From Saprospiraceae bacterium (GTDB lineage Bacteria > Bacteroidota > Bacteroidia > Chitinophagales > Saprospiraceae), in contig JAHDDR010000002.1 of NCBI GenBank assembly GCA_020629255.1, positions 1-64,000 on the forward strand: DNA of 64,000 nt. The letters run 5' to 3'. Position numbers and translations under genes: made by a program. Positions 62-16,653 of the stretch are shown piece by piece. The stretch's first letter is position 1. Each line of letters begins with the position of its first letter. The notes under the pieces are model-generated. The model did no database searches. It worked only from the letters and a program-made list of their open reading frames with translations, and had not been told where the DNA came from.

Positions 62-2116
62 TTGAAAAAAGTAATGAAAGAAAAAACAATATACGCTCTT
101 TTAATCGGAATTAATGATTATGCAATCAAACCTCTATACGGTTGTATCAATGATGTATTAGGCATGAAAAAATATCTGGATGAACTTCAAATAAGACAAG
201 ACGAAATTGGAAAGATAGAATATAAATTCCTTCTAGCGCCCCATACAGATTCTGCATCCAACAACATAAAAGAAATGAAAAAAGAAGGAATCGACGAAAA
301 TAATTATTCCTTGCCGACCAGAAATAATATTATTAATGCCTTCGATTTTTTTAATGACGCAACTCAAGAAGATATTTGTATATTATATTTTTCCGGACAT
401 GGTTCTTTTCAGGAAGTGGATGCTCCTTTTCAATATTTAGGAGGTACGGGGCAGTATCAAACTATTGTTGCTCATGATAGTAGGAAAGGGGAAGGGACAA
501 AAGATATCGTGGATAAAGAATTGTCCTACTTGATATGGAAAGTTAAAAAAGACAAACCCAATTTACATTTTGTAAGCATTATGGATTGTTGTTTTGCTGG
601 GACAAATACGATGGATGTAAATCAACCTATACAAAAATGGAGCAATGAAAATGAAAATAAAATTCATTATTCAAAATTTGTAGGTTTTCCTAATGATGGG
701 AATTCTAATGATTTTTATTTTATTAAAAAAAATGATGATGGAAAAATAATTAAAATAGATACGGACATCCCAAGACATATAGCACTGAGTGCTTCCCAAG
801 AAATGAAATCTTCGGAAGAAAGACAATTTCCTTCAGGAAGCCAAGGTTTGTTTACTTATGTTTTATTGGATGCCTTAAATAAAAATGTTGGAAATATTTC
901 TTATGATGATTTGGTAAAAAGGGTTGCTTTTAGATTAAAAAATAATTTTAATGCAAGCCATATCCCTAACCTTTGGAGTTCACCGAATGAAAGTAAGAAA
1001 ATAAATTTTTTAAATTTAGGAAAAATATCAGATAGCAAAGTTTATCCCATAGAAAAAAATAAAGAAAACGGAAATTGGATGTTGTTGGCAGGAGAAATTG
1101 ATTTGATAGTATCTTCAAGAGTGAATCCTACTACCATACAAGTAAAAGGGTTGGATGAAAACGATAATATCATATTTTCAGGCATAGCAAAAATAAAAGA
1201 AATTTATTCTACAGAATCCGTTTTGGAATGGGAACAGAATCCCCCAGAAGAAGAAGGGCTAAGATACAAAGGTGTTATTATAGAAATGAATGCTCCAAAA
1301 GTAGGAATGTCAATAAAAGTCGGATTGTCGAAGAAAGAAATTTTAATATTAAAAACACTATCTTTCGATATCCAATTTTACAAAATATCAGATGTTGATT
1401 CTGATTATACTATAAAGAAAGAAACCGGTTTATTCTTTTTGGTACAAGGAGGAAAGGAATTATTTAATGGAATATCAGAAATAGAAAACTTTAAAAAAGC
1501 ACTCAATGCCTTTGGTAAATGGCATGCCGTTCTGAATTTGAAACCTCATGAAAAAAATAATATTTTTAGAGAAAATATTTCGGTTATTACGAATATAATA
1601 GAAGGAGAAGAAATGGATCTTCAGACCATTCAAAAGGGGACATACCCGATAAGCCGTAATTTAGAAAACCCCAAGCAGCTTCAATTGGGATATCAACCAT
1701 TAAAAAATAATCCCAATAAAAAGGAAAGACCTTTATTACAAATTAAAATGAAAAGCAAAGTAGATCAACAATACATAACTTCCATATTATTGATGTCAGA
1801 AAAGTATGATATCCGAAATTGTTTCGAAGCGAATCGAATCTTTGGTCAAGAAGAAACCTTGATAAAATACGATAGTAAAAAATATGGCCTTGTCCATTAT
1901 CTCCCCTTTGCTTTACCCGAAAATAAAGAAGGAAACCTCGAAATTTATTATCTTAAATTTTTCATCATGAAAAAAGATAATTTTTTCGAATTAGAACATT
2001 TGCAGCAAGAAGCAATAGACAATATGCTAGTGTCGACCATGAATATCGTAACAAGATCCAAAAGAAAGAAAGCCGATTGGATGACTTTTACCATCAAAAT
2101 CGAAGTTTCCCGTTGA
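62..2116 (+). CDS. Caspase-like (peptidase C14/metacaspase-type) protease with C-terminal beta-rich extension
   Basis: N-terminal ALLIGINDY...L.GC.NDV.GM motif; catalytic His in ILYFSGHG (codon 113, nt 398-400); catalytic Cys in VSIMDCCFAG (nt 587-592). TTG at 62 or ATG at 74 could be the start. Confidence 0.9.
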   Translation: MKKVMKEKTIYALLIGINDYAIKPLYGCINDVLGMKKYLDELQIRQDEIGKIEYKFLLAPHTDSASNNIKEMKKEGIDENNYSLPTRNNIINAFDFFNDATQEDICILYFSGHGSFQEVDAPFQYLGGTGQYQTIVAHDSRKGEGTKDIVDKELSYLIWKVKKDKPNLHFVSIMDCCFAGTNTMDVNQPIQKWSNENENKIHYSKFVGFPNDGNSNDFYFIKKNDDGKIIKIDTDIPRHIALSASQEMKSSEERQFPSGSQGLFTYVLLDALNKNVGNISYDDLVKRVAFRLKNNFNASHIPNLWSSPNESKKINFLNLGKISDSKVYPIEKNKENGNWMLLAGEIDLIVSSRVNPTTIQVKGLDENDNIIFSGIAKIKEIYSTESVLEWEQNPPEEEGLRYKGVIIEMNAPKVGMSIKVGLSKKEILILKTLSFDIQFYKISDVDSDYTIKKETGLFFLVQGGKELFNGISEIENFKKALNAFGKWHAVLNLKPHEKNNIFRENISVITNIIEGEEMDLQTIQKGTYPISRNLENPKQLQLGYQPLKNNPNKKERPLLQIKMKSKVDQQYITSILLMSEKYDIRNCFEANRIFGQEETLIKYDSKKYGLVHYLPFALPENKEGNLEIYYLKFFIMKKDNFFELEHLQQEAIDNMLVSTMNIVTRSKRKKADWMTFTIKIEVSR

Positions 2117-2175: not shown

Positions 2176-3951
2176 ATGGGAGATGATGAATTTGGAATAG
2201 AAGAAAAACAAGGGAATTGTTACCTTTTCATGGTAGCCATAAATGATTATTCTCAGTTTCAGCCCAAGCATGGGCAAACAAAACCTATGCCCTTATACAA
2301 TGCTGTAGGGAGTAGTATACATATCCTATACGAGCTAACTAAATATTACACCTATCAACCTCCCCATCATTTTCCTGAATTTACTGAAATAGATATTCCG
2401 GATGTAAGGAAGTATCTTGCTGAAAAATATATACATACAGACATCGATCCGACTCGTTTTGATGATCCCGCCTATAAAAATGAAATCCAACCAAAATTAC
2501 AGACCTATACTTTGTTCGATGAACAAGCAACAGTAGCTAATTTTGAACAACACTTGGATTTTTTATTCGGAATAAATGGGAAACCCTTTTTGGAAAAAGA
2601 AGATAGTTTGTTGCTTTATATCACCTGTCATGGACTTTTCAATCCTAACACTTCTGCCCTGAATTTGATGTTATACGATCAGAGTTATCTGGCCAGTCAA
2701 TTAATAGATATATTCGAACCCAAATTCATCAATGGAAAATTTAAGGAAAAAATAAAAGATGTATTGTTGGTAATGGATTGTTGTAATGCAAGAGGAATAT
2801 CATTAAGCCAAACAGGAATTGGTGATTCACACCTGACGCGAAGATTCATCGCCTCGTCCTCACATGATGGAAAAGCCATAGATAGGAGAGGGACGGAAAA
2901 AATCACGCCTTTTGCCCAATCTTTTTTATCTGCTTTAGGCCAGTATAATAATACGGATGATGAATCTTTATTCCAGAATATAAAAGAGAAATTAAAAGAT
3001 CTGGATATTTCTAATGAACAACAGACAGCTACCAATGGATATATTCCTTGCTCTTCTATAGGAGGAGATTTTTTTTCTTTGAATTTAAAAAATAATTTCT
3101 CTCCTCCTAAAAAGTTAAAAAAGCATCTAAAAGAATTAAATTATACGGTAGAAAAAAGTGAGGTAGAATTAAAAGAATCTGAAAATAAAAATATTGACAG
3201 GTTGTTGTTCTTTACTTGCTATGGTGATTCTTGGGGAACTCATAATTTTGTATATAAATTACTCTTGGATACATATAAGTTCGAACTAGAAGGTTTTTAT
3301 GAAGGGACAAGAATGAAGGGCAAATTCAAAAGAATTGTAATCCCCTTAGGAGATTATTCAGGAAGTATAGGAATAGTTCCATTGCCTTTTAATACTAAAA
3401 TCAGAGGGCAGTTACATTTTTCCAAAGAAGTAAGTGATGAAAAAGTATTCGAAAATATTTATGGGAAATTATTAGAACATAATGTAGTTCTTTTTTGTGA
3501 TTTTGATAAAAGTAGCCTAGAATATTATGAAAGACAAATAAAGGAAATCAAAACATTTATGGATGGTTTTTCAACTTTCGTCCATACTAAAGATAATACA
3601 TTAACAGATACCGTATTTGTATTATTTGTCAGATTTCAGGCCATTAAAACTCCTGTAGGTGGAATCGATTTGTTTGATGAAGATCATTTTTCGAATTTTA
3701 AGGAATTAGAATTGGGGGAAGGGAAATACAATTATTTATCTATTTCCCCAATTGGGGAAATAGAGAGAAGTGATTTGAGAGTTTGGGGGAGAAAAATTGG
3801 TTTCAGTGATACTTATGGCCAGGAATTGGGAGTGAATTCATTATTTACCAAATCACAAACACTGGAAAACACAGTCGGTATTTTGGTCGAAATATTAAAA
3901 TATGATGATGATGCTCAAATGGAATTAAACGATCTTGTTTTTGAAATTTAA
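2176..3951 (+). CDS. Caspase-like protease fused to a C-terminal degenerate P-loop/iSTAND-like region
   Basis: MVAINDY N-terminus; LLLYITCHG (His, nt 2629-2631) and LLVMDCCNARG (Cys, nt 2779-2784). The C-terminal half has RLLFFTCYGDSWGTHNFVYKLL and VVLFCDFDKS, which resemble degenerate Walker A/B. Confidence 0.8.
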   Translation: MGDDEFGIEEKQGNCYLFMVAINDYSQFQPKHGQTKPMPLYNAVGSSIHILYELTKYYTYQPPHHFPEFTEIDIPDVRKYLAEKYIHTDIDPTRFDDPAYKNEIQPKLQTYTLFDEQATVANFEQHLDFLFGINGKPFLEKEDSLLLYITCHGLFNPNTSALNLMLYDQSYLASQLIDIFEPKFINGKFKEKIKDVLLVMDCCNARGISLSQTGIGDSHLTRRFIASSSHDGKAIDRRGTEKITPFAQSFLSALGQYNNTDDESLFQNIKEKLKDLDISNEQQTATNGYIPCSSIGGDFFSLNLKNNFSPPKKLKKHLKELNYTVEKSEVELKESENKNIDRLLFFTCYGDSWGTHNFVYKLLLDTYKFELEGFYEGTRMKGKFKRIVIPLGDYSGSIGIVPLPFNTKIRGQLHFSKEVSDEKVFENIYGKLLEHNVVLFCDFDKSSLEYYERQIKEIKTFMDGFSTFVHTKDNTLTDTVFVLFVRFQAIKTPVGGIDLFDEDHFSNFKELELGEGKYNYLSISPIGEIERSDLRVWGRKIGFSDTYGQELGVNSLFTKSQTLENTVGILVEILKYDDDAQMELNDLVFEI

Positions 3952-3955
3952 TGTT

Positions 3956-5023
3956 ATGAATAAAAAATACAAACCCTATTATAAGGAAAATGGAAAATTA
4001 ATTTCCAAATTCAGGAAAAATGAAAATGATGACACCCTAGTACCCAAAGTAGGGAAGGCACCTTATGTCGCCTCCGATGAAATGGTGGAAATAGTCAGAT
4101 TAGCACAAATACTGAATCGACCCATTTTAATAAAAGGTGAACCGGGGTGTGGAAAAACCATGCTCGCAAAATCCATTGCCATGGAATGGTATGCCCAAGA
4201 ATCTGATGATGAAGAAAAACAAAAAGAAGCATGGAATACCTATAAAAATTATTTTTTCGAATGGCATATTAAATCGACTTCTAAGGTTTCTGATGGGATT
4301 TATGAAGTAGATCATGTAAAAAGATTATACGATGCCAACCGAGAAAACCGAAGCCTTAAACCCATAGATGAATATATCAACAAAGGACCTATGGCATTGG
4401 CGTTGGATAAATCCACTGAAGATAATCCAACCATTTTATTAATTGATGAAATTGATAAGGCAGACATAGATTTTCCTAACGACTTATTACTAGAGTTGGA
4501 TGAAAGCCGTTATGAAATTCCAACAGAAAATGATGAGGGTGAGGTTGTTCAGAAACCCGTTGAAGCGAAACATCCCCCATTGGTTGTTATTACCAGTAAT
4601 GATGAAAGGGAATTGCCCGCCGCTTTTTTAAGAAGGTGTTTGTTTCTATGGGTCGAGTTTCCAAAACCAGAAGTTTTAGGACAAATTATCCAGGCTCATA
4701 TGCCAAAATTTCATAAAGAGCATACAGACTTTGTAAAGAAAGCAATTTCTGTATTTAATAAAGTAAAGGAAAACATCAAAACACAAACCAATGAAGAAAA
4801 AAATATTTCTACGTCAGAATTAATACAATGGCTGCAATGCTTTGAATGGCTCAATGATTCTACAGACAAATTTAAAGGAAATACGGATAAATTAATTGAT
4901 CACATTTATGGTGAAAGTGGAGAACTGAGATATTATTCTACCTTATTTAAAACATATGTTTCTTATAAAAAACGCATTGAATTAAGTAAAATAAAAAAGG
5001 ATGAGGGAAAAAAATCATCCTAG
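3956..5023 (+). CDS. MoxR-type AAA+ ATPase
   Basis: Walker A GEPGCGKTMLAKSIA, Walker B ILLIDEIDKAD, sensor VVITSNDERELPAAFLRRC. The ATG at 3956 is preferred over the TTG at 3935 inside the upstream ORF. Confidence 0.9.
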   Translation: MNKKYKPYYKENGKLISKFRKNENDDTLVPKVGKAPYVASDEMVEIVRLAQILNRPILIKGEPGCGKTMLAKSIAMEWYAQESDDEEKQKEAWNTYKNYFFEWHIKSTSKVSDGIYEVDHVKRLYDANRENRSLKPIDEYINKGPMALALDKSTEDNPTILLIDEIDKADIDFPNDLLLELDESRYEIPTENDEGEVVQKPVEAKHPPLVVITSNDERELPAAFLRRCLFLWVEFPKPEVLGQIIQAHMPKFHKEHTDFVKKAISVFNKVKENIKTQTNEEKNISTSELIQWLQCFEWLNDSTDKFKGNTDKLIDHIYGESGELRYYSTLFKTYVSYKKRIELSKIKKDEGKKSS

Positions 5024-6197
5024 GCATATTATCTTTCCCCATTGGGTACAATGGATGAAGTCAAGAATGGGCTATGATGTCGATTTGGATACATACAAGT
5101 TATTTATCAAAGCTATTCTTGATGGCTCCATACCTACCCATAATTTTGATGCATTTGTCCGACATTGTAAATATATGTTTTTACAACAAAATAATCATGC
5201 TGGAAAATTTTCTTTTTTATTGGAAGATATGTTGGAAGAAGAATTCAATCAATTGATAAAATTGTTGGAAATAGAAAATGATGCACCCTTCAACAAAATG
5301 CAAAACGGAGAAAAAAAAGTTCCTTTGGTTGATTCCGGAAAATCAAATAAAAGAAAAAACAAGAATAAAGATTCTGAAAAAAGAAAGCAAGAAAAAGATG
5401 ATTTGAAATTCACAACAGAATTAATTGATGTCGAAACAGAAGAAATTGTTCCTAAATATATCGAGCTAAATCAGATACTTCCTTATATCGACGAAACCAT
5501 AGAAATTGAAGAAGAAAATTTTGTTTATTCGGATGAATATTTTCCGGTGTCCAGAAAACATATGGTGAAGAATTGGAGATATGTTCGGGAAAAAGAACAA
5601 TATGGTTATTCAGATTTAATTGACGTAAAAGCTACTGTAAAGGAAATTGCAAAAATTAATTTTTTTCTGAAACCCATCTTCCAAAAAGGAAAAAGAAATA
5701 AATCCCAATTACTAACAATTTTTGCAGATGTACGAGGAAGCATGTTGGCCTTTGAAAAATGGATAGAACGATTTGTGGAAACGGCTAAAGCAGGGGGTGG
5801 TTTGAAAGGCACAAAAGCCTATTATTTTCAAAATGTTCCTGATGAATATGTTTACGAAAAAATACATATTTCGGAACCAAGGAAATTCCAAGAAGTATTA
5901 GAACAAAAAAAGAATAAAAATTCGGTGGCGGTAGTGATTAGCGATGCGGGAGCAGTAAAAGGCAGGGCATCAGAAGACAAAATAAAATCAGTATTGCGAT
6001 TTTGGAATCAGTTGAATCAACATTATGCTTATGTGGTTTGGCTTAATCCTATGCCTATCCATCGATGGAAAAATACATCCTGTGCAATTATTGCAGAAAA
6101 CATAGAAAGAATGTATCCCTTGATGGACATCGAAATTACCTATTTGCAAAGCGTAATAAAATCATTAATCAATCGGAAAAATGTGGATCTTAGATGA
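5001..6197 (+). CDS. vWA-domain protein (CoxE/SAV_2336-like) partner of MoxR
   Basis: QLLTIFADVRGSM (MIDAS-like), VAVVISDAG, VVWLNPMPIHRW; starts inside the 3' end of the MoxR ORF (23-nt overlap). Confidence 0.8.
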   Translation: MREKNHPRHIIFPHWVQWMKSRMGYDVDLDTYKLFIKAILDGSIPTHNFDAFVRHCKYMFLQQNNHAGKFSFLLEDMLEEEFNQLIKLLEIENDAPFNKMQNGEKKVPLVDSGKSNKRKNKNKDSEKRKQEKDDLKFTTELIDVETEEIVPKYIELNQILPYIDETIEIEEENFVYSDEYFPVSRKHMVKNWRYVREKEQYGYSDLIDVKATVKEIAKINFFLKPIFQKGKRNKSQLLTIFADVRGSMLAFEKWIERFVETAKAGGGLKGTKAYYFQNVPDEYVYEKIHISEPRKFQEVLEQKKNKNSVAVVISDAGAVKGRASEDKIKSVLRFWNQLNQHYAYVVWLNPMPIHRWKNTSCAIIAENIERMYPLMDIEITYLQSVIKSLINRKNVDLR

Positions 6198-9100
6198 GTC
6201 GAAGTGATTTAAATATCAATTACTCGAATTTAGGTTTTGCCAATAAGAACCGTCTAAGAAAATTCATCAAAGAATTTACCCAAACTTATTTTGATGAATA
6301 TACAATAGGCCATTTAGTTATGGCCGCATATGCTTCTATCCCTACTTTTATTTATCCCGATTTGTTATACAAATTCCATGCAAATTTTGGAATGTATCAA
6401 TGGGGAGGCAAAAAATATAAAATTCATTTGGTAGCCATTTCAGATGTAATCCAATCCTCTTTTTTGAAAGATGTGGGTTATAATCTATTTGTGATGGACC
6501 CCGAAATAAAAAAAGTATTATCCGAATGGTTGTCGAATGAATTAAAAGCCGGAAACGAAAAAAAATTATATTCATTTGAAACCATTGCCCAGTTCGTAAA
6601 ATCTGATTTGAAATATCAAAGTGCAGACATTGAATTTTGGGGAGGTGATGCTTTTGTGCAAGCCCAAGAATTTGGAGCCAATAAAATCGTGGACACGAAT
6701 ACGGCCTTTAAAAAAATTGTTCGACAAATTCAATTAGCAGATGCTCCGATGGAACAATTGGTTGCATCGAATAAATTAAAAGAAATTCTTGCCCAAGAAA
6801 ATATTACGACCGATCTTTCTCAATTTTATTTGGATACGGAAACAGAAGAAAGTATCGAATTATTAATTACGGAAACCATACAGAAAAAGGCAAATGCTAG
6901 AGTGCCCAAAACTCTTGTAAAAGGAATTTTTATTGCAGTAGATGATCAAAATTTGGGATCTAATATTGCCGAACAGGTTCCAACTAAATTTGCTCCCTCA
7001 GGGTTTAACCCCTTAGGAAATAGCTTCAAGGCAAGGCAATTAATGAAAGCCATTGAAGGAGATGAAATTCTAAATCATAAAAATTATTTTGAGTTTAAAG
7101 AGTTTTTTAATAAGACTGCATCAGATAGGAAAATTTTACAAGAATTAGATGCATGGCAAGATTTAGAAGAGGACGACGTGGCGGTTTTTTATTTTTCAGG
7201 AAAAGTAGAACCCAATTCGTTAGAAAATAATACAGGAGAATTAATGGTGTTGTCTTTGCCTGAATTATCAATAAATATTCAACAAATTCCTGATGGAAAA
7301 ATATTATTATCTCAAGGTCTTGTAGAACAAAAAATATATGAAATCATAAAAAATAAGAAGATTCATATTGTTATGATTTATGATTTCGATTATAGTGATT
7401 ATAATACAGAACCAAGAATATTTAATGTAAATGAAAAATCATTAAGAAATGATTCGGAAATGGAAGGTTCTGCTGTTGTTTTTTATTTGGGAACTCATAA
7501 TAATGACATTAAGCGGCAAGGAGGACTTACGGGTGTATTAGAGAAAATATTTTTACAAGGGGGCTTGTCGAAAACATATAAAGATCTTGGATTCGAAATT
7601 AAAAATGAAATTAATAAATCCAATAAAGGAACAAATAATATAGCGTTAGAGCCCATTCTCGCATTTCCGAAAAATACAGAACATTTTCGTTTTCTAAACA
7701 ATAAAACCAGCCAGTTCGATCATTTAGAATTATTTTTTAATGAAAAAAGAAAAGGTTGGTATTTGAATGCGGGATCGAATTTAGGACTTAATCCTTCCCT
7801 GGGTTTTATGCACACCTTAATCGAAGTGGAATTGCCGGAAGGAAACCAGCTGATTCCTTTAAAACGAATTGGAACCAAAAATTCTTTTTTTTCCGATTTT
7901 AATTATGAAGGATCTGGAAAGAAATTCAAAGCAAAACTTATTCAAAACAGCTTGAATAAAGTTCGATTTTATTTAGATAAATCCTTAGGAAGAAAAGAAC
8001 GGAATGAATTGGAAGATGCACTTCGTGAAAATCAAATTCAACTGATAGAATTATCAAATAATAAATTTGAAACCCATTATATAATTGCTCAAAATGAAGA
8101 ATTTGGATATTTTGCTTATGATCCTTTACTAGGAGAAAGTACGCCGATGGTTCATCTGGAAAATAATTTTTCCCAATTCTTGATTTATTTGGAATACCTC
8201 GCCCAATGGGAAGGCTTGATTCGATATTCCAACCTCAATTCAAAATATAATTATGCTGAAATTTCATATTCTCTTCAATTAACTTTAGATACTGAGTATG
8301 AATTTTATAATCCGGAATATTTCAACATTACCATACAGAATTATTATGATGAAGAATTTATTATTACAATAGAGGTAAGGTCGAAAAATAGAAATGGCGA
8401 ATATGTTTCCGAAACGATAACCCATCGGCAAAAAGGATTTACATTGCCAGAGTTGGATGTGATTCTACATACATCATACCAAGATTTACATTTAACGCCA
8501 TTTTTGTTGGATAATAATATGGCGATCCAAATGTTGCAAGCCGTACCATCCGAAAATCAGCCCGTGCCAGAAAATGATTTTTCGTATGATTTATATCCTT
8601 ATAGTTTTGATTTGTTCAATCAAAGAATGGGAGACAATAATTCTTTTTATTTAAAATTATTTCTGACCGACAAAGCCGTTAATTTCAAGCCCTTCGAGCA
8701 AGAAGGAGTTCAAGAAGGTGTAATTTCAAAAGGGTTGGATTTTTACAGGGGTGAAGAATTTAATTTCCAAAATGCCAATTGGATTTCTTTTACCTTGCCT
8801 ATCCAAATCAAATATGAATTAATGGATGAGTTGCCGGATGACGGAATAGATAGTATTCCTATAGAAAATAATCCTAATTTTACATCAAGCGATGTAAGTA
8901 AAGGAGTAGATGTTAATTTTGAGAAATTAGAGACTCAAGAAGAGTTTGAAAATAAATTAAGTGAAATTTATGGGTCTCTTGAACATTTCGAACTAAAGAA
9001 TGCGTCTTCTCATATGAGAACATTGTTATTGTCTCTAAATTATTCTGATGAAAATGAAATTTGGAAAACATATAATAATCTTGATCGGGAAATCAGTATA

Positions 9101-9502
9101 ATTGATAATTTGCAAGAAGAGGGGAGGATGAACACAAAGGAATATATGAAAGCTTTTTTTGATTTTGAGAAAGAAATAAAGAATCTATTGGATGAAGTGA
9201 AAAAAGAAGATGTTCTTGATTTAGAAAACGAAACAAAAGCAACTTATTTTGCCGAAATAAGAAAACTCCTTGCCGAAAATAAAATGAAGGAACTATTTAA
9301 TGAGTTAGAAAAAATAGCAAAGAGTAATAGTTCATATGGAAACCAACTCATTTTATTACAGTCCCGATACAATAGCCTTCAAAAAAGTATTTTGAATTAT
9401 ACCATTTCTACTGAGCAATCTAATATTTCTATGAATCAAATTAGAGCAGCTATTTTATCTCTTATCAACGATCTAGAAAACGACAAAGACATCCAATTTT
9501 AA
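6194..9502 (+). CDS. VMAP-like adaptor: novel N-terminal region, catalytically dead caspase-like domain, C-terminal EAD11-like module(s)
   Basis: ATGA overlap with the vWA stop (6194-6197); VAVFYFSGKVE (His to Lys) and IHIVMIYDFDYSD (DCC to DFD); C-terminal LLAENKMKELFNELEKIAKSN...NQLILLQSRYNSLQK...ISTEQSNISMNQIRAAILSLINDL matches the EAD11 pattern. Confidence 0.7.
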   Translation: MSRSDLNINYSNLGFANKNRLRKFIKEFTQTYFDEYTIGHLVMAAYASIPTFIYPDLLYKFHANFGMYQWGGKKYKIHLVAISDVIQSSFLKDVGYNLFVMDPEIKKVLSEWLSNELKAGNEKKLYSFETIAQFVKSDLKYQSADIEFWGGDAFVQAQEFGANKIVDTNTAFKKIVRQIQLADAPMEQLVASNKLKEILAQENITTDLSQFYLDTETEESIELLITETIQKKANARVPKTLVKGIFIAVDDQNLGSNIAEQVPTKFAPSGFNPLGNSFKARQLMKAIEGDEILNHKNYFEFKEFFNKTASDRKILQELDAWQDLEEDDVAVFYFSGKVEPNSLENNTGELMVLSLPELSINIQQIPDGKILLSQGLVEQKIYEIIKNKKIHIVMIYDFDYSDYNTEPRIFNVNEKSLRNDSEMEGSAVVFYLGTHNNDIKRQGGLTGVLEKIFLQGGLSKTYKDLGFEIKNEINKSNKGTNNIALEPILAFPKNTEHFRFLNNKTSQFDHLELFFNEKRKGWYLNAGSNLGLNPSLGFMHTLIEVELPEGNQLIPLKRIGTKNSFFSDFNYEGSGKKFKAKLIQNSLNKVRFYLDKSLGRKERNELEDALRENQIQLIELSNNKFETHYIIAQNEEFGYFAYDPLLGESTPMVHLENNFSQFLIYLEYLAQWEGLIRYSNLNSKYNYAEISYSLQLTLDTEYEFYNPEYFNITIQNYYDEEFIITIEVRSKNRNGEYVSETITHRQKGFTLPELDVILHTSYQDLHLTPFLLDNNMAIQMLQAVPSENQPVPENDFSYDLYPYSFDLFNQRMGDNNSFYLKLFLTDKAVNFKPFEQEGVQEGVISKGLDFYRGEEFNFQNANWISFTLPIQIKYELMDELPDDGIDSIPIENNPNFTSSDVSKGVDVNFEKLETQEEFENKLSEIYGSLEHFELKNASSHMRTLLLSLNYSDENEIWKTYNNLDREISIIDNLQEEGRMNTKEYMKAFFDFEKEIKNLLDEVKKEDVLDLENETKATYFAEIRKLLAENKMKELFNELEKIAKSNSSYGNQLILLQSRYNSLQKSILNYTISTEQSNISMNQIRAAILSLINDLENDKDIQF

Positions 9503-12500
9503 TAATCATAACCACCACCATAACCTCCTCTATATGTATTCACCCTGCGCCGCTTTTTGTAAAGGACCGCTTCCGTAGCATCCTTTTCAAATTTGTTCAT
9601 TTCTTTGGCATCATCAAAATCCATTTCTGTGTATTTTGATTTTGAATAACTGCTTTTATATTGGATAGGTTTTTCCTTGTCCAATTTATAAGCAATGTAC
9701 TGTATGCCCCATTCTTCAGATTTATTTTCATTACCCGAATACCCATAACCATCATCTTTTTTCTTGCTTTTGAAAAAATAGATAATGTATTCATCTTCTT
9801 CATCTATTAAGACACTGTCTTTTAAAAATACGATACTATCAATAGAAGGATAAGTGGTATAATCATATAAATAAGCCTCTGCAATGGCTTGTTGGTTTTT
9901 GTAAGCTTTCGGAAATTTATCCAGTTGTTTTAATTTTTTTAATTGTCGATATAAATCCAAGCGGGTCTTTGGATTTTCCGCCAACTTCGTCATGATTCTT
10001 GGATCGACATAAGAATTGTGTTTGGCCAATTGTGCCAATAAAATAGTTTTTGTATAAGGGTTTTCTAAAGTTTTTATTTTATTGAACAATTCACTTACCG
10101 CCTCTTCCTTGTGGAAGGGTGCCAACAAAGAAATATATTCATCCAAAAGAGAAGGAGAAGAATTATAACTGCTCCCATAATATCGATCCGATTTTTTATT
10201 CAGCTCGCTGGCTTTTTTCCTTTTATATTCAATTTTCATTTCATTCAATAAAAGCCCTTTGTATTTTTTTAGGATTTTAGTTTTTAAATGACCTTTATCT
10301 TTTAAATGGGCTGCCAATTGGTACACCCAATTTTTATATTCAGGAATAGAAGAATAATCCATTAATTCAGGAAATAAAATATTGCCATATTTTACGGCGG
10401 TCGAATCCATTAATGGACGAAACGTTTCATAAATGTTTCTTTCTGTAGAAAGAGGAATATCTGTCTTTAATAAAGTCAAAATTGATTTGAAATTATTTTC
10501 ACTGGGATTTTTTGCTAAGGCATTGATGACCTCCAATTGTATTAAACTATTGTCTTCGGATTGGATATACTTATTTTTAAGATAAGGAAAAACACGAGGG
10601 TCTTCTATGTTTCCTAATTCTTCCAATAGTCCGATTTTTATTTTCATTTCTTTTTCTTCGAACTCGTAATTTTCGATGGTTTCGATTAAGGGTTGTACAT
10701 CTTTTTTATCAAAAACAATATATTCATACGCCTTTAATGTATTGGCGCGGGTAAGGCTATCGGAACTATGTATATTGTCGAAAAAAATACTCGATTTTTT
10801 ATGAAAAGGACTTCTTCCAATCAATGTATCTGCCAAAATGAAGGTTTGGAAAAAAGTATCTATAAAAGTAGAAAGAGGTTCGTCAGAATAATGATCGTAT
10901 TGTAATAAATACATCACACCATGATTTAAGACATAATAGTTGTGAATGGATTTAGTGCTATTTTTCCGACTTAATTCCATAGCATAAAAAGGCTGGCCTT
11001 TTTTAAGTGTCCCTTTTTCTTTTTTGCTAATGATGTGATCATCTTCCTCCCATTTTCTTTCAATTCTATTCCATATCGAATCTAGATGTTCTACTTCATA
11101 AAAACTATGATACTTATTGTATGAAATATGGATGACTTCCTTGTAAGGTGTTTTAAAACTAGCACTTTGGTATTTGGACGAAAGTGTATCTTTGCTTTGA
11201 CGCATACCGTAAAAATCAAAGTACGGAGGCGATTCTACAGAAGAAATAACTTCGAAAAATAAACTCGTATCAATTTGTAATTCATATTTTTCATCTTTAT
11301 GGAGATAAGGTTTGAACTGGAACGAATCGAAATATTTTTTACTGGAAATACTATCCACTCCCACGGTTCCCATCATATAATAACGAGGTCCTTTTTTTAT
11401 CGAAAATAAATCCATCCTATCCCCATCTTTAGTCGTAGAGGTCGAATAAGAATGAGGGAAAGGGAAATCATCTCTTTGTGCATAAGAATGTATGGATTGT
11501 GCAGAAGTGTCAATTTGGTCATACCATATTTTATGCAAATATTCAAGCTCGAATTTGTCACTTTCCAAATATCTATAATCGTGATAAACCAAAGCTTGTG
11601 CAAAATAAAAACCTCCATCTTTACCCATGCTTTGGATCATCAAAGGACTGCCTTCCGAAGCATAAAGATGGTTGCCGTCCATAATAGGACTACCTGGAAT
11701 TTCTATTTCGAAATCACCATAAAAAGGTTGAACGGTTTTTGAAACATTTTCTTCTTTTTTCAATTTTAGGCTATTAAAATATTTGCTTCCATATTGCAAA
11801 GCATAATCCTTTTTTCCTCCCAATTTGAAAACTATGATTTCCAAAGGGGTTTCAACAATTAAATATTTTTGATGTTCGCCACTCTTTGTTTTATTTTTAA
11901 TTTCTATTGCCGGATATCCTTGGAAATTAATTCTATTTTGTTGTTCTATTTTTCCAGGAATATTTTCATACAGCATATCCTCAATTTCATCCAATCCGAA
12001 TTTATCCTTGTTCAATTTAGAAAAAGTAGGGGTTCTGAAAGAAAGAAAGTATGCACCGTTCGTTATGTCAAGAGAAAGTCCGACTTGTAAACCGTTATAA
12101 CTGAACTCATATAACTGTTCAGGTAAGTCAACCGAATAAAAATTATCAGAAGAAAAATATGTTTGATGCGGTCTATTTAAGAAATTCGTTTCAAAATTAT
12201 CTTTAATGTTTATTCCTTTTGGAGTCAAGTCTCCTTCGATAGCCGTAACCGAATAACCCTCCTCTCTCAAATATTCTATCACGCCTTTTTTTCCCGGTAA
12301 ATGGGCGGCACCAATGCCAACAAAGACTGTTCCCTTCTGCATAACGCTATCCATAGCCTCTACAATATTCCTGTTTCGTTCATAGAGCATATATTCATTA
12401 TACAATTCGGGATAATAATCTTCATTCAAGGAATCAATCAAATCCAGATTTTTATCCCGGTAAGCATCTTCTGTTAATTCTACAATTCCTTTTTTCTGTA

Positions 12501-13113
12501 ATTTCTTTTTCAACCACGGAGAAAATTCCTTTTTATCGTCGTAAGCATTTAATGCCGCTTTTTTTGTAAGCTGATCCGCTTCTTCGATATCTTCTAGGGC
12601 AAGCACCGGTTTTTTCTGTTTGCTCCCTGCCTGAAAAATAAACATATCCAAATAGGTCTCTTCTTGGAAATTTTGTTGGGCATCGCTATTGCGGTATAAA
12701 ATGCCATTCACCAACTCGTTATTTTGTTTTAGGATATATTGGAAATTCTTCTCGTCGGGGAAATGAGGGGCAAAAGAAGAATAAAGTTCATTGTCCATAC
12801 CATACCCACCACCACTGACTTGATCCAACATCAGATCCATCCAATCTTCAGGATTGGTTTCCAATGCCACTTGATCCACTTCTTGCAAGGCCTGATAAAA
12901 TTCATCATTCAAATGATAGGCGATTTTATAACTCACATGCATTGTGCCATACAAATAGGAAGGTTTCTCCATGCCCTTGCCCTCTATTTTCCAGAACAGG
13001 CTTTGGTATTTTTGAACATTCTCCTCCTCTTGGGCTTGTAATGGAAAAAAGCCAGAGGCAAACAATAAGATAAAGAAATAGGATAAATAAGTACGATTGG
13101 ATAAGTATGCCAT
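9499..13113 (-). CDS. TraB/PrgY/GumN-family protein with signal peptide and long HEAT-like C-terminal extension
   Basis: Signal peptide MAYLSNRTYLSYFFILLFASGFFPLQAQ; LFWKIEGKGMEKPSYLYGTMHVSYK and GTVFVGIGAAHLPGKKGVIEYLREEGY are GumN hallmarks. Confidence 0.85.
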   Translation of the reverse strand: MAYLSNRTYLSYFFILLFASGFFPLQAQEEENVQKYQSLFWKIEGKGMEKPSYLYGTMHVSYKIAYHLNDEFYQALQEVDQVALETNPEDWMDLMLDQVSGGGYGMDNELYSSFAPHFPDEKNFQYILKQNNELVNGILYRNSDAQQNFQEETYLDMFIFQAGSKQKKPVLALEDIEEADQLTKKAALNAYDDKKEFSPWLKKKLQKKGIVELTEDAYRDKNLDLIDSLNEDYYPELYNEYMLYERNRNIVEAMDSVMQKGTVFVGIGAAHLPGKKGVIEYLREEGYSVTAIEGDLTPKGINIKDNFETNFLNRPHQTYFSSDNFYSVDLPEQLYEFSYNGLQVGLSLDITNGAYFLSFRTPTFSKLNKDKFGLDEIEDMLYENIPGKIEQQNRINFQGYPAIEIKNKTKSGEHQKYLIVETPLEIIVFKLGGKKDYALQYGSKYFNSLKLKKEENVSKTVQPFYGDFEIEIPGSPIMDGNHLYASEGSPLMIQSMGKDGGFYFAQALVYHDYRYLESDKFELEYLHKIWYDQIDTSAQSIHSYAQRDDFPFPHSYSTSTTKDGDRMDLFSIKKGPRYYMMGTVGVDSISSKKYFDSFQFKPYLHKDEKYELQIDTSLFFEVISSVESPPYFDFYGMRQSKDTLSSKYQSASFKTPYKEVIHISYNKYHSFYEVEHLDSIWNRIERKWEEDDHIISKKEKGTLKKGQPFYAMELSRKNSTKSIHNYYVLNHGVMYLLQYDHYSDEPLSTFIDTFFQTFILADTLIGRSPFHKKSSIFFDNIHSSDSLTRANTLKAYEYIVFDKKDVQPLIETIENYEFEEKEMKIKIGLLEELGNIEDPRVFPYLKNKYIQSEDNSLIQLEVINALAKNPSENNFKSILTLLKTDIPLSTERNIYETFRPLMDSTAVKYGNILFPELMDYSSIPEYKNWVYQLAAHLKDKGHLKTKILKKYKGLLLNEMKIEYKRKKASELNKKSDRYYGSSYNSSPSLLDEYISLLAPFHKEEAVSELFNKIKTLENPYTKTILLAQLAKHNSYVDPRIMTKLAENPKTRLDLYRQLKKLKQLDKFPKAYKNQQAIAEAYLYDYTTYPSIDSIVFLKDSVLIDEEDEYIIYFFKSKKKDDGYGYSGNENKSEEWGIQYIAYKLDKEKPIQYKSSYSKSKYTEMDFDDAKEMNKFEKDATEAVLYKKRRRVNTYRGGYGGGYDY

Positions 13114-13323
13114 TCTCTAATAATAATTTAAAATAATTGGGAGTTACCCTGATAATTTCAGGAAGGGCAAAATACAATTAATTCTTATTAGTCGCCTGTA
13201 TCCCCACATTAAATTACGAAAATTAATCTTGTCCTTTCAAAAGTGTTGTGGATTCTACATTTTTGATTAATTTTCCGATTCTTTTGGAATTGATCCTTGG
13301 CAGACTCAATAAAGCACAGATTC

Positions 13324-16300
13324 ATGAGCCAGATTTCGATGGATGTGCCGGTCATTGTACGGCAGGTAAAATTGGAAGGGAAACTGAATTATCAGATTCG
13401 CCCATTGTTCTTTTCTTACCCATCCGTAACCCATCGTCGTTATGAAAAAGCTGAATCCACATTCAAGAATGAACTTAAATTTTATTTCCAGAATTATGTC
13501 CTGAGCCGTCCCGCCTTACCGAATTACTTGTGGTTCCGTTTCCATCCCGATGTCCAATACCAAATCGAACATTTCGAATTCAATTTGGGCAAACAATACG
13601 TGAAAGGAAATTTCGCCTATGCGGTATTCAACATGCAAAATGATAAATATGCCTTTCTTCCCAATATGAATAATTTCATGTTCATGTTGAAAACCAATGA
13701 AAAAGGAAAATATGACATCAAAGAAGGAGTAGGGCAAGTCATAGAATATCTTCTAAAAACATATCGGAAGAATTTAGGTAACTCCCATTTGGAAATAGAG
13801 CCTTATACATCCAACAAAAGCGAATTCAAATCTTCCATAAAATGCAATGTCAAGGTAGACGAGCAACCCTATCCCTTCGAAAATGATTTTGCTTCGATGT
13901 TTTTTGCCGGTTTCGGACAACAATCGGATTTTAACGGGAGTGTTGAAATTTATAAGGTAGGACATGATTTAAATGATAAATTTCCAAGCGACTTGCTAAC
14001 CGCTTGGTATCGGGAAAAAGAAATTTCAAGAATTGGTGAAGCTCTGTTTTCCAAAGAGAATACACCCATCGTACTAGTAGGAAAAGAAGGAGTAGGGAGG
14101 AAAAGTATTCTTCACGAAGTGTTGTATCGTTACCTCAGAGAGAGGGAAGGAACAGAAGATGAACTTCTCAAGAAAGTATGGCACATCGACCCGACTCGGA
14201 TCATAGCTGGTATGAGTATAGTGGGGATGTGGCAGAAACGCTTCGAATCCATTTTGAAATACATTCAGACTCGAAGGAAGAATGTCAAGAAAACCAATGA
14301 TCGTTCATCCGATATTCTATTCTTTGATAATCCCGTCGCTTTACTAAGAATCGGAAAGTCGTCCCAAAACGACATGACACTCAGTGATGTCATGAAACCA
14401 TATTTGGAAAAAAGACTTTTGCAAACCATCATTGTCGCTACGCCAGAAGAATGGAAGGTCGTACAAGAAAAGGATAGAAGATTTTCCGACTTGTTCAGTG
14501 TAGTACGAATGGATGAACCCGATCAGGTGACGGCAGTAAAAATGGTGTTGCAACGTAGAAAGTTATTGGAAGTCGAATACAGTTGCAAAATTTCGGCTCA
14601 TGCCATCTATAAACTGTTTGCCATCCATCGAAACTATTTTAAGAGAAGAGCCTTGCCCGGTGGCGTGATGCAACTCCTCAACCAAATGGCAGTCAAATAC
14701 AAATTCCATTCCATTGATGTAAATGAAATAGAACAGGAATTCGAAGATTATAGCGGCTTGTCTCCTATCCTTACGGATGATACCATCACCTTTGCCGAAA
14801 ACGATGTGAGAAACGAATTGGCACTTCAGCTCGTAGGGCAATCCGATGCCGTTGATGCATTGGCCGATTCTATCCATTCCATCAAAGCGAAACTGGTTAA
14901 CCCGAATAAACCCAAGGCATCTTTTATGTTTATTGGTCCTACAGGAGTCGGGAAAACCCAAGCAGCGAAAGTATTGGCAGAATACATGCTAGGAGGCGAA
15001 CAACAACTCATGCGTTTCGATATGAACGAATATATCGACGCTTCTGCCATTACCCGGCTAATAGGCGATCAAAACAATCCGGAAGGACAATTAACGGGAA
15101 AAGTAAGGTACAATCCTTTTGGAATTGTCTTGTTGGATGAAATCGAAAAAGCACATTCCAAAGTACATGATTTATTATTACAAGTGTTGGATGATGGCCG
15201 CCTGACTGATAGTTTGGGAAGAACCGTTGACTTTTCGAATACCGTCATCATCATGACATCCAATATCGGAGCGGATCAAGTGTATTCCAGAGTGGGTTTC
15301 GAACCCAACCAAAGTGAAATTGATGCGGTATACCGCAAAGCAGTCGAAAACCGCTTCCGTCCGGAATTCATCAATCGAATTGATAAAATCGTCATTTTCC
15401 AACCCTTAAAGCAGAAGCATATTTTGGGCATCGCCCGATTGCAAATCAATGAGCTGCTCAAACGGGATGGTTTTGTAAGGAGAACGACCATACTTAATAT
15501 TTCTGAGGATGCCCTAGCATGGGTCTCTAGCCGTGGCTTCGATGAAAAAATGGGAGGACGTGCCCTGAAACGTCAAATAGAAAAAGACTTGACTGCCCTT
15601 TCTGCCGAACAACTTTTAGAAGCGGATAGCGATACACCGGTCATCATGGATATTTTCCTTAAAAATAATCGACTCTTACCTCGCATCACCCCCTTGGATT
15701 TTACACCCACTGGAGACAGTTCCTGGTTGCCTTCTTTACCCGAAGAGAAAAAAGGAAAGAAATTTTATGGCCATTTATTGAGAACCATAGAACGGGTGGA
15801 AAAAAGCATTCAACGGTACGAAGAAAAACAAAAAGGCAATGATGAAATCATTGTGATTGGTGCGCACAATGAAGATTTGGATTGGCAATACTATGATTTC
15901 AAAGATCGCTTGGTGAATGTCAAAGAGAAGGTCAAGGAAACCATGCTGGGTTTTAGGGATAGTTATTTCAAAGGAGGCCCGGCACTTCCCCTTCGCTTGA
16001 AAGGCGGTGGTTTGGGGAGTTATATCCAGAAAAGCCAAGCCTCCACGAAGGGCTATCGCCAATTATTGAAGGATAAATTATTCCAAAAACAAGCCCTGGC
16101 AGAACTCAACGAATTCTATCGGCTGGCATCGGATCAATTTGATAGTCTGAATACCGAGTTTTTGGACAATTATTTGGATGCCGCATTTTTGAGTTTGCAA
16201 TCCAAGGGCTTCCTGAAGGAACAATCGGATGAGGTAACCTTGGAGTACAGTTCTTGCATCGATGGCAAAGGCAAAAAAGAACTGGATTTCCTAATGGATC

Positions 16301-16653
16301 TGCACAAATCTTATTTTGATGATGCAGAAATCCAATACGAAGAATTTCGAAAGGCAAGAAAAATAGTAGCAGACTCCCATTCATTATATGAATTGATCAA
16401 AGGAGAGAGAGGCATACATTTGTTCTATCGAACACACCAAACACCCTTGCCCTTGCGGGTAGAAATAAAATGCACCGACTATCCTGAAGAAACATCCATC
16501 ATGCGAGTTTTGAGATTATATGATCTCAAAGCAACATTAACGGATTTGAGAACCGGCTTCTCCAATGATGTCAGCATCACACCCAAAGAATTCAAATTGA
16601 TATTATATGCTGGTTTGGATGAAAAAACCAGAAACGAAATTATGAGGGTATAA
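13324..16653 (+). CDS. ClpC/ClpA-like double AAA+ ATPase with unusual N-terminus and release-factor-like C-terminal domain
   Basis: D1 GKEGVGRKS and ILFFDN (degenerate); D2 GPTGVGKTQ, IVLLDEIEKAH, TSNIGADQVYSRVGF, RFRPEFINRIDKIVIF; C-terminus ELIKGERGIHLFYR...RLYDLKATLTDLRTGFS. ATG at 13324 preferred over TTG at 13297. Confidence 0.85.
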   Translation: MSQISMDVPVIVRQVKLEGKLNYQIRPLFFSYPSVTHRRYEKAESTFKNELKFYFQNYVLSRPALPNYLWFRFHPDVQYQIEHFEFNLGKQYVKGNFAYAVFNMQNDKYAFLPNMNNFMFMLKTNEKGKYDIKEGVGQVIEYLLKTYRKNLGNSHLEIEPYTSNKSEFKSSIKCNVKVDEQPYPFENDFASMFFAGFGQQSDFNGSVEIYKVGHDLNDKFPSDLLTAWYREKEISRIGEALFSKENTPIVLVGKEGVGRKSILHEVLYRYLREREGTEDELLKKVWHIDPTRIIAGMSIVGMWQKRFESILKYIQTRRKNVKKTNDRSSDILFFDNPVALLRIGKSSQNDMTLSDVMKPYLEKRLLQTIIVATPEEWKVVQEKDRRFSDLFSVVRMDEPDQVTAVKMVLQRRKLLEVEYSCKISAHAIYKLFAIHRNYFKRRALPGGVMQLLNQMAVKYKFHSIDVNEIEQEFEDYSGLSPILTDDTITFAENDVRNELALQLVGQSDAVDALADSIHSIKAKLVNPNKPKASFMFIGPTGVGKTQAAKVLAEYMLGGEQQLMRFDMNEYIDASAITRLIGDQNNPEGQLTGKVRYNPFGIVLLDEIEKAHSKVHDLLLQVLDDGRLTDSLGRTVDFSNTVIIMTSNIGADQVYSRVGFEPNQSEIDAVYRKAVENRFRPEFINRIDKIVIFQPLKQKHILGIARLQINELLKRDGFVRRTTILNISEDALAWVSSRGFDEKMGGRALKRQIEKDLTALSAEQLLEADSDTPVIMDIFLKNNRLLPRITPLDFTPTGDSSWLPSLPEEKKGKKFYGHLLRTIERVEKSIQRYEEKQKGNDEIIVIGAHNEDLDWQYYDFKDRLVNVKEKVKETMLGFRDSYFKGGPALPLRLKGGGLGSYIQKSQASTKGYRQLLKDKLFQKQALAELNEFYRLASDQFDSLNTEFLDNYLDAAFLSLQSKGFLKEQSDEVTLEYSSCIDGKGKKELDFLMDLHKSYFDDAEIQYEEFRKARKIVADSHSLYELIKGERGIHLFYRTHQTPLPLRVEIKCTDYPEETSIMRVLRLYDLKATLTDLRTGFSNDVSITPKEFKLILYAGLDEKTRNEIMRV

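Follow-up and report, generated by a model that had tools for sequence, protein, structure and literature searches.

The operon at positions 62–9502 of contig JAHDDR010000002.1 from a Saprospiraceae bacterium (GCA_020629255.1) has the gene order ORF1, ORF2, MoxR, vWA (CoxE-like) and ORF5. The stretch analysed, referred to here as the window, is 64,000 nucleotides long and covers positions 1–64,000 of the contig on the forward strand. A sequence-only reading of this DNA had described ORF5 (6194–9502, 1102 residues in one open frame) as a VMAP-like protein with a catalytically dead caspase-like domain, encoded together with two active caspases. The locus raises two questions: whether the ORF5 segment is indeed a caspase that has lost its catalytic residues and, if so, what such a domain would do beside caspases that have kept theirs.

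Operon organization and system class

The features of the operon are collected in Table 1. As had been proposed, ORF1 and ORF2 are both apparently active caspases, judging by their intact His/Cys dyads. The MoxR ATPase and the CoxE-like vWA protein are encoded in adjacent genes, an arrangement conserved among relatives, as is the position of the MoxR gene, which matches Pfam bpMoxR under the cut-off (E 0.002). Pfam did not find iSTAND in ORF2 itself; comparison of ORF2-type C-termini with the iSTAND proteins of sister loci by hhalign gave a probability of 98.3 (E 1.4e-14), and 22/38 third-component proteins in the relatives' loci matched Pfam iSTAND. It is close to certain that the operon is a MoxR-vWA-iSTAND ternary system, with ORF2 as its caspase-iSTAND third component.

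Table 1. Coordinates of operon features in the window, with the evidence for each
Feature	Position	Strand	Evidence
ORF1 caspase domain	77..1018	+	Pfam Peptidase_C14 E 5.9e-21; ORF1 = 62-2116
ORF1 catalytic dyad, intact	His 398-400, Cys 590-592	+	coordinates read from sequence
ORF1 S1 Asp residues	152-154 and 584-586	+	coordinates read from sequence
ORF1 'W.L.AG' beta-rich domain, 3' of caspase	1028..1543	+	seed alignment member and profile match
ORF2 caspase domain	2212..3036	+	Pfam Peptidase_C14 E 2.5e-5; ORF2 = 2176-3951
ORF2 dyad, intact	His 2629-2631, Cys 2782-2784	+	coordinates read from sequence
ORF2 C-terminal inactive-STAND (iSTAND) domain, third component	3085..3948	+	hhalign
MoxR-type AAA+ ATPase	3935..5023	+	Pfam AAA E 1.6e-9, AAA_5 E 1.9e-8
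vWA protein, CoxE-like	5001..6197	+	Pfam VWA_CoxE E 6.8e-6, 26.1 bits (cut-off 26.4)
ORF5 N-terminal helical domain 'vWA-L', residues 1-240	6194..6913	+	position after vWA; AF2
ORF5 predicted pseudo-caspase domain, residues ~239-504	6908..7705	+	profiles, alignment, AF2, Foldseek
Ala280 at S1-pocket Asp position (TbMCA2 Asp95 equivalent)	7031..7033	+	alignment and TbMCA2 mapping
Lys337 replacing catalytic His	7202..7204	+	codon AAA, 35-sequence alignment
Asp397, second S1-pocket Asp (TbMCA2 Asp211 equivalent), retained	7382..7384	+	alignment and mapping
Asp399 replacing catalytic Cys	7388..7390	+	alignment
ORF5 'W.L.AG' beta-rich domain, residues 506-680	7709..8233	+	homologous to ORF1 343-514; confident AF2
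ORF5 C-terminal effector-associated domain EAD11, residues 1020-1095	9251..9478	+	Pfam EAD11 E 2.1e-18

The operon shares with described MoxR-vWA-iSTAND systems (Kaur et al. 2020; PMC8195603) the order third component, MoxR, vWA, vWA-L, and an iSTAND third component that begins with a caspase, TIR, CHAT or trypsin domain. It differs in that the iSTAND domain of ORF2 is too diverged for Pfam, and in that CHAT-iSTAND fusions are common here: CHAT was matched by 12/38 third components, and the fusions are frequent in Saprospiraceae (L067, L070, L073, L083 and others, upstream of MoxR). In G001, the gene upstream of the caspase-iSTAND (L021:137-1330) appears by eye to be alpha/beta-hydrolase-like, and its beginning looks, again by eye, like the end of the caspase protein of L024 (L024:1619-4330), which agrees with the pairing of caspase and alpha/beta-hydrolase that Kaur et al. 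noted.

vWA-L has its own gene beside vWA in a minority of iSTAND systems, and this gene carries the variable C-terminal domains (PMC8195603). Wherever a locus is complete enough for the comparison, vWA is directly followed by a helical domain like ORF5 1–240; such loci come from Saprospiraceae, one further family of the order and filamentous cyanobacteria. The AF2 model of this ORF5 domain is helical (pLDDT 89), and a fold search with it returned no PDB match below E 0.5. The domain fits vWA-L, assigned by position and helical character. The VMAP label had to be dropped, as the third-component slot is held by ORF2, ORF5 starts with the helical domain of the vWA-L position, and Pfam gives EAD11 as the sole match in ORF5. 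In sister loci, the slot taken by the ORF5 caspase-like segment holds LRR, TPR or NB-ARC domains (Pfam) or HEAT-like or sulfatase-modifying-like domains (by eye), and enzymes (caspase, CHAT, TIR, trypsin) are placed on the iSTAND side.

EAD11 is a predicted homotypic adaptor, and it has 10 matches in the source genome. Among the ten places in G000 (L221–L230), L225 encodes an EAD11 partner that has a membrane helix and a sulfatase-modifying-like domain, and L226 one that is a Roc-COR-like GTPase, both judged by eye. Beyond the operon, the window encodes a TraB/PrgY/gumN-family protein (9499–13113, minus strand) and a ClpB-like AAA protein (13297–16653, plus strand).

Sequence and predicted fold of the ORF5 caspase domain

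Translation of ORF5 places Lys337 at the end of the motif FSGK, and Asp397-Phe398-Asp399 (7382–7390) within YDFDYSD. When 35 caspase and caspase-like segments taken from related operons are aligned, these motifs fall in the SGHG and DCC columns, in agreement with the His to Lys and DCC to DFD replacements read from the sequence alone. Of the two C residues in DCC the second is catalytic, so the exact substitution is Cys to Asp399, with Phe398 standing for the first. Mapping onto TbMCA2 (PDB 4af8) likewise put Lys337 and Asp399 at the His and Cys columns.

Direct comparison of the segment with ORF1 by BLASTP was weak (E 0.002 over 23 residues), no caspase was called by Pfam in ORF5, and the Peptidase_C14 model missed E 0.01 on the segment, so an alignment by eye alone was insufficient. 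A profile of active caspases only scored the segment at 25.6 bits (best of 500 shuffles, 8.4), a profile of all relatives minus ORF5 itself at 40.8 bits (best shuffle, 8.2), and one from which its same-genus relative was also left out at 34.9 bits (best shuffles ~8). At the sequence level, these scores are decisive for a caspase relationship. The same-genus relative, in G001, aligns with the ORF5 domain at 29% identity (E 3e-16) and itself matches Peptidase_C14 with 51.5 bits.

The AF2 model of ORF5 residues 236–700 has caspase topology with the alternating strand-helix order (pLDDT 78, pTM 0.72); since the input alignment held true caspases, the model depends on the sequence evidence. The top PDB matches in Foldseek were caspase-9, GSU0716, a Candida metacaspase and MALT1, all with a probability of 1.00, which bears out the caspase-hemoglobinase fold claimed for the segment. 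By profile and model, then, residues ~239–504 are a caspase/metacaspase-fold domain and a pseudo-member of Peptidase_C14. The 7181–7399 interval given earlier covers its catalytic half, the whole domain being longer (Table 1). Upstream, the KGIFIAVDDQ and LGNSFKARQ segments are present as described; downstream, the W.L.AG segment is homologous to the region behind the ORF1 caspase, and by profile comparison the two-domain module of caspase and W.L.AG is common to ORF5 and ORF1.

With Lys337 and Asp399 in its place, the domain lacks the His/Cys dyad by which an active peptidase is recognized. As far as the sequence can tell, it is close to certain that it cannot use the His/Cys mechanism and is catalytically dead.

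Caspase domains at the vWA-L position in related loci

The His/Cys dyad was read in each caspase domain found among 113 vWA-L proteins (48 from Bacteroidota, 65 from cyanobacteria) and their loci. Relatives of the ORF5 domain are dead too rather than retaining His and Cys: directly behind vWA-L, the dyad is intact in 1/27 readable domains (L098, from Nostoc) and in 0/25 of those from Bacteroidota, of which 11 keep His and 2 keep Cys. Caspase domains farther along vWA-L proteins are intact in one case of 11 (L083). By contrast, the dyad is intact in 37/38 of the separate caspases encoded elsewhere in these loci (fused versus separate, nominal Fisher p 8e-18, with related sequences counted separately). 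The substitution pairs at the dyad include K/D, H/H, Y/G, T/C, L/S and others, all at one operon position. No matching in class was seen between the dead domain and the enzyme on the third component, as TIR-, CHAT- and caspase-iSTAND all co-occur with dead caspases. In the dyad table the Cys column of L078 is misaligned (LDCC by eye); L078 is dead anyway by His to Leu.

Domains in which Cys is replaced by His (DTH) keep the original His in 8 of 9 cases (L021, L057, L061, L067, L070, L073, L125 and L127), against 8/27 of the others; only five pairs are independent, and the association is not significant. As a sub-variant of the integrated-decoy reading given below, the idea that this recurrent His..Asp-Thr-His pseudo-site is a metal or ligand site is worth testing.

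Tandem dead copies occur in the vWA-L proteins L021, L023, L055–L057 and L086. In L023, L055, L056 and L057 (1431–2551 residues), two dead caspase domains lie one behind the other, and the distal copy reads SGLG and LDMG or LDTG; the distal domains of L023 and L056 are 92% identical though dS is ~1.0–1.4. In L063, L064, L072, L074, L080 and L081, CHAT-like domains stand behind vWA-L with the catalytic Cys missing by eye, the CHAT call being clear by Pfam only in L063. A second caspase-clan fold is apparently dead at the vWA-L position too.

The dead domains gave dN/dS values of 0.03–0.19 in four pairwise comparisons, all with dS close to or above 1; another two pairs were saturated. Values in this range indicate that they are maintained under purifying selection.

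The S1 pocket

In TbMCA2, Asp95 and Asp211 have a role in the S1 pocket (PMC4357240, PMC6426788). Their equivalents are kept by 24/26 and 26/27 of the proximal domains, respectively. Retention of the Asp pair where the dyad is lost suggests that the pocket, not cutting, is conserved. ORF5 is an exception, as it retains Asp397 and has Ala280 at the position of the other Asp, which nearly all relatives keep.

Bacterial pseudo-orthocaspases with acidic pockets were described in 2019, 10/1078 of them in Bacteroidetes (PMC6426788). Like these, the domains considered here have a caspase p20 fold, a substituted dyad and, usually, an acidic S1 pocket; most relatives keep both Asp residues, and ORF5 one. 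Unlike them, the published proteins are mainly alphaproteobacterial and cyanobacterial and of the YS, YN and FS types.

Phylogeny

About six switches between fused and separate caspases are implied by the tree, and activity changed four times or more; the Cys column changed 18 times and the His column 14 times. Independent fused/separate pairs on well-supported branches number four, too few for significance. The ORF5 domain has the longest branch (2.84) and is the most diverged of the set. It groups with the vWA-L-fused dead domains of L021, L059 and L061 (99/93), not with ORF1. An origin of the dead domain by direct duplication of ORF1 is unsupported by this grouping, though the two proteins have the two-domain module in common. 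The AU test, run on a set that included L090, rejected one common origin for all the fused proximal domains (p 3e-54). The dead domain of L090 (H/N) sits within the active caspases of ORF1 type (99/93), and from its place in the tree L090 plainly represents a separate recruitment of a dead caspase.

Possible roles of the dead domain

The most likely role is one in binding, since the fold, the pocket and selection have outlasted the catalytic mechanism. We propose, with a probability of roughly one half, that the ORF5 domain is a non-catalytic, caspase-mimicking binding module that serves as a decoy or sensor, a role more likely than the other binding roles considered. The support counted for this reading consists of the dead dyad within a caspase fold, the contrast in intactness (1/27 versus 37/38), selection, Asp retention, and co-occurrence: among Bacteroidota loci, a separate intact caspase is found in 17/23 with a fused caspase domain and in 4/13 of the rest (p 0.017, kinship ignored). 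A decoy or sensor is favoured among binding roles because recognition or scaffold domains occupy this slot in sister loci, with the enzymes on the iSTAND side. The published model with the vWA-side protein as sensor and the third component as effector (PMC10907252) favours it as well, as do the decoy roles proposed by Kaur et al. 2020. In such a mechanism, the dead domain would expose a surface like that of a caspase, to which an anti-caspase factor of an invader, or a caspase substrate, would bind. We infer that binding would then be passed on to the third component via vWA-L, vWA and the MoxR ATPase, so that the active caspases ORF1 and ORF2 would be released, and EAD11 of ORF5 may recruit other EAD11 proteins in the cell. 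Counting against this reading, no separate caspase was seen in the stretch examined for 6/23 loci with a fused caspase; the ORF5 copy, with Ala280 and the longest branch, may have lost the ability to bind a basic P1 residue; and the Fisher p-values take no account of kinship, the tree giving four independent pairs. In the literature, we found no experiment on an iSTAND ternary system.

The sequence-only reading had pictured a pseudo-protease that heterodimerizes with, scaffolds or inhibits the two active caspases. The pseudo-protease stands, and a scaffold or non-catalytic binder fits best; a cFLIP-like heterodimer or inhibition is unproven in the light of TbMCA2 and the tree. cFLIP, an animal pseudo-caspase, dimerizes with caspase-8 via the caspase-type interface. 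It resembles ORF5 in pairing a dead caspase domain with active relatives within a death pathway, and a dimer of this style is only an analogy for ORF5. Direct binding of the dead domain to the active caspase(s) of its operon in this manner, either to hold them off or to help activate them, is possible but doubtful. Two apparently active caspases are encoded in cis, the module of caspase and W.L.AG is common to the dead domain and ORF1, and fused domains co-occur with separate caspases. However, TbMCA2 is described as monomeric in a structural review (PMC4357240), so a caspase-type dimer interface is unexpected in this branch, and in the tree the dead domain of an operon does not pair with an active one from that operon. 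Moreover, the TIR-iSTAND loci L065 and L066 have a dead domain and no separate caspase in view.

It is rather unlikely that the domain captures peptides or substrates, its acidic S1 pocket holding a basic-residue peptide uncut, for example a cleaved product of ORF1 or ORF2, and positioning it for the MoxR-vWA chaperone pair. Most relatives have lost the dyad and kept both S1 Asp residues, as in the cyanobacterial pseudo-orthocaspases (PMC6426788), but ORF5 retains one of the two, with Ala280 in place of the other. A mere remnant, decaying and functionless in ORF5, is very improbable: the ORF5 copy is the most diverged of the set, but its frame is open through to a well-preserved C-terminal EAD11, the relatives' dead domains are under purifying selection, and AF2 still yields an ordered caspase core.

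Returning to the decoy or sensor, a more specific and tentative version is that the Saprospiraceae dead caspases are integrated decoys, protease mimics in the sensor slot of the MoxR-vWA-iSTAND machine, which would catch invader-made caspase inhibitors and thereby trigger the real caspases, as a bacterial counterpart of the decoy domains in plant NLRs.

Relation to known systems and implications

Inactive caspases at this position (2020) and pseudo-orthocaspases with retained pockets (2019) are already known. Kaur et al. 2020 (PMC7159879) reported ~70% of the caspase domains at the vWA effector position to be inactive, a figure that comes from VMAP systems with the caspase on the vWA protein itself, and proposed dominant-negative, decoy or peptide-binding roles for inactive enzymes. 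Those systems and the ORF5 operon share a MoxR-vWA core, an inactive caspase on the vWA side and an active protease on the third component. The ORF5 operon differs in its iSTAND type, its separate vWA-L gene, the 0/25 intact domains in Bacteroidota, the caspase and W.L.AG module, and EAD11. What is new is the ORF5 domain as a very diverged member and the almost total loss of the dyad directly behind vWA-L in Bacteroidota. Also new are the contrast with the intact caspases of the same loci, the pocket retention, the tandem dead copies, the recurrent His-His pseudo-site and the assignment of the operon to the iSTAND class.

Ternary conflict systems, which are rich in inactive enzymes, have been predicted to act as immune machines in multicellular bacteria. 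Here, one slot of such a machine is repeatedly filled by caspase folds that do not cut, with the pocket mostly kept, under selection and beside intact caspases. The dead vWA-L caspases offer a concrete, testable case for bacterial pseudoproteases as sensors, decoys or regulators, with parallels in cFLIP and in the decoy domains of plant immune receptors. These observations suggest that the vWA-L position uses caspase folds for binding rather than cutting.
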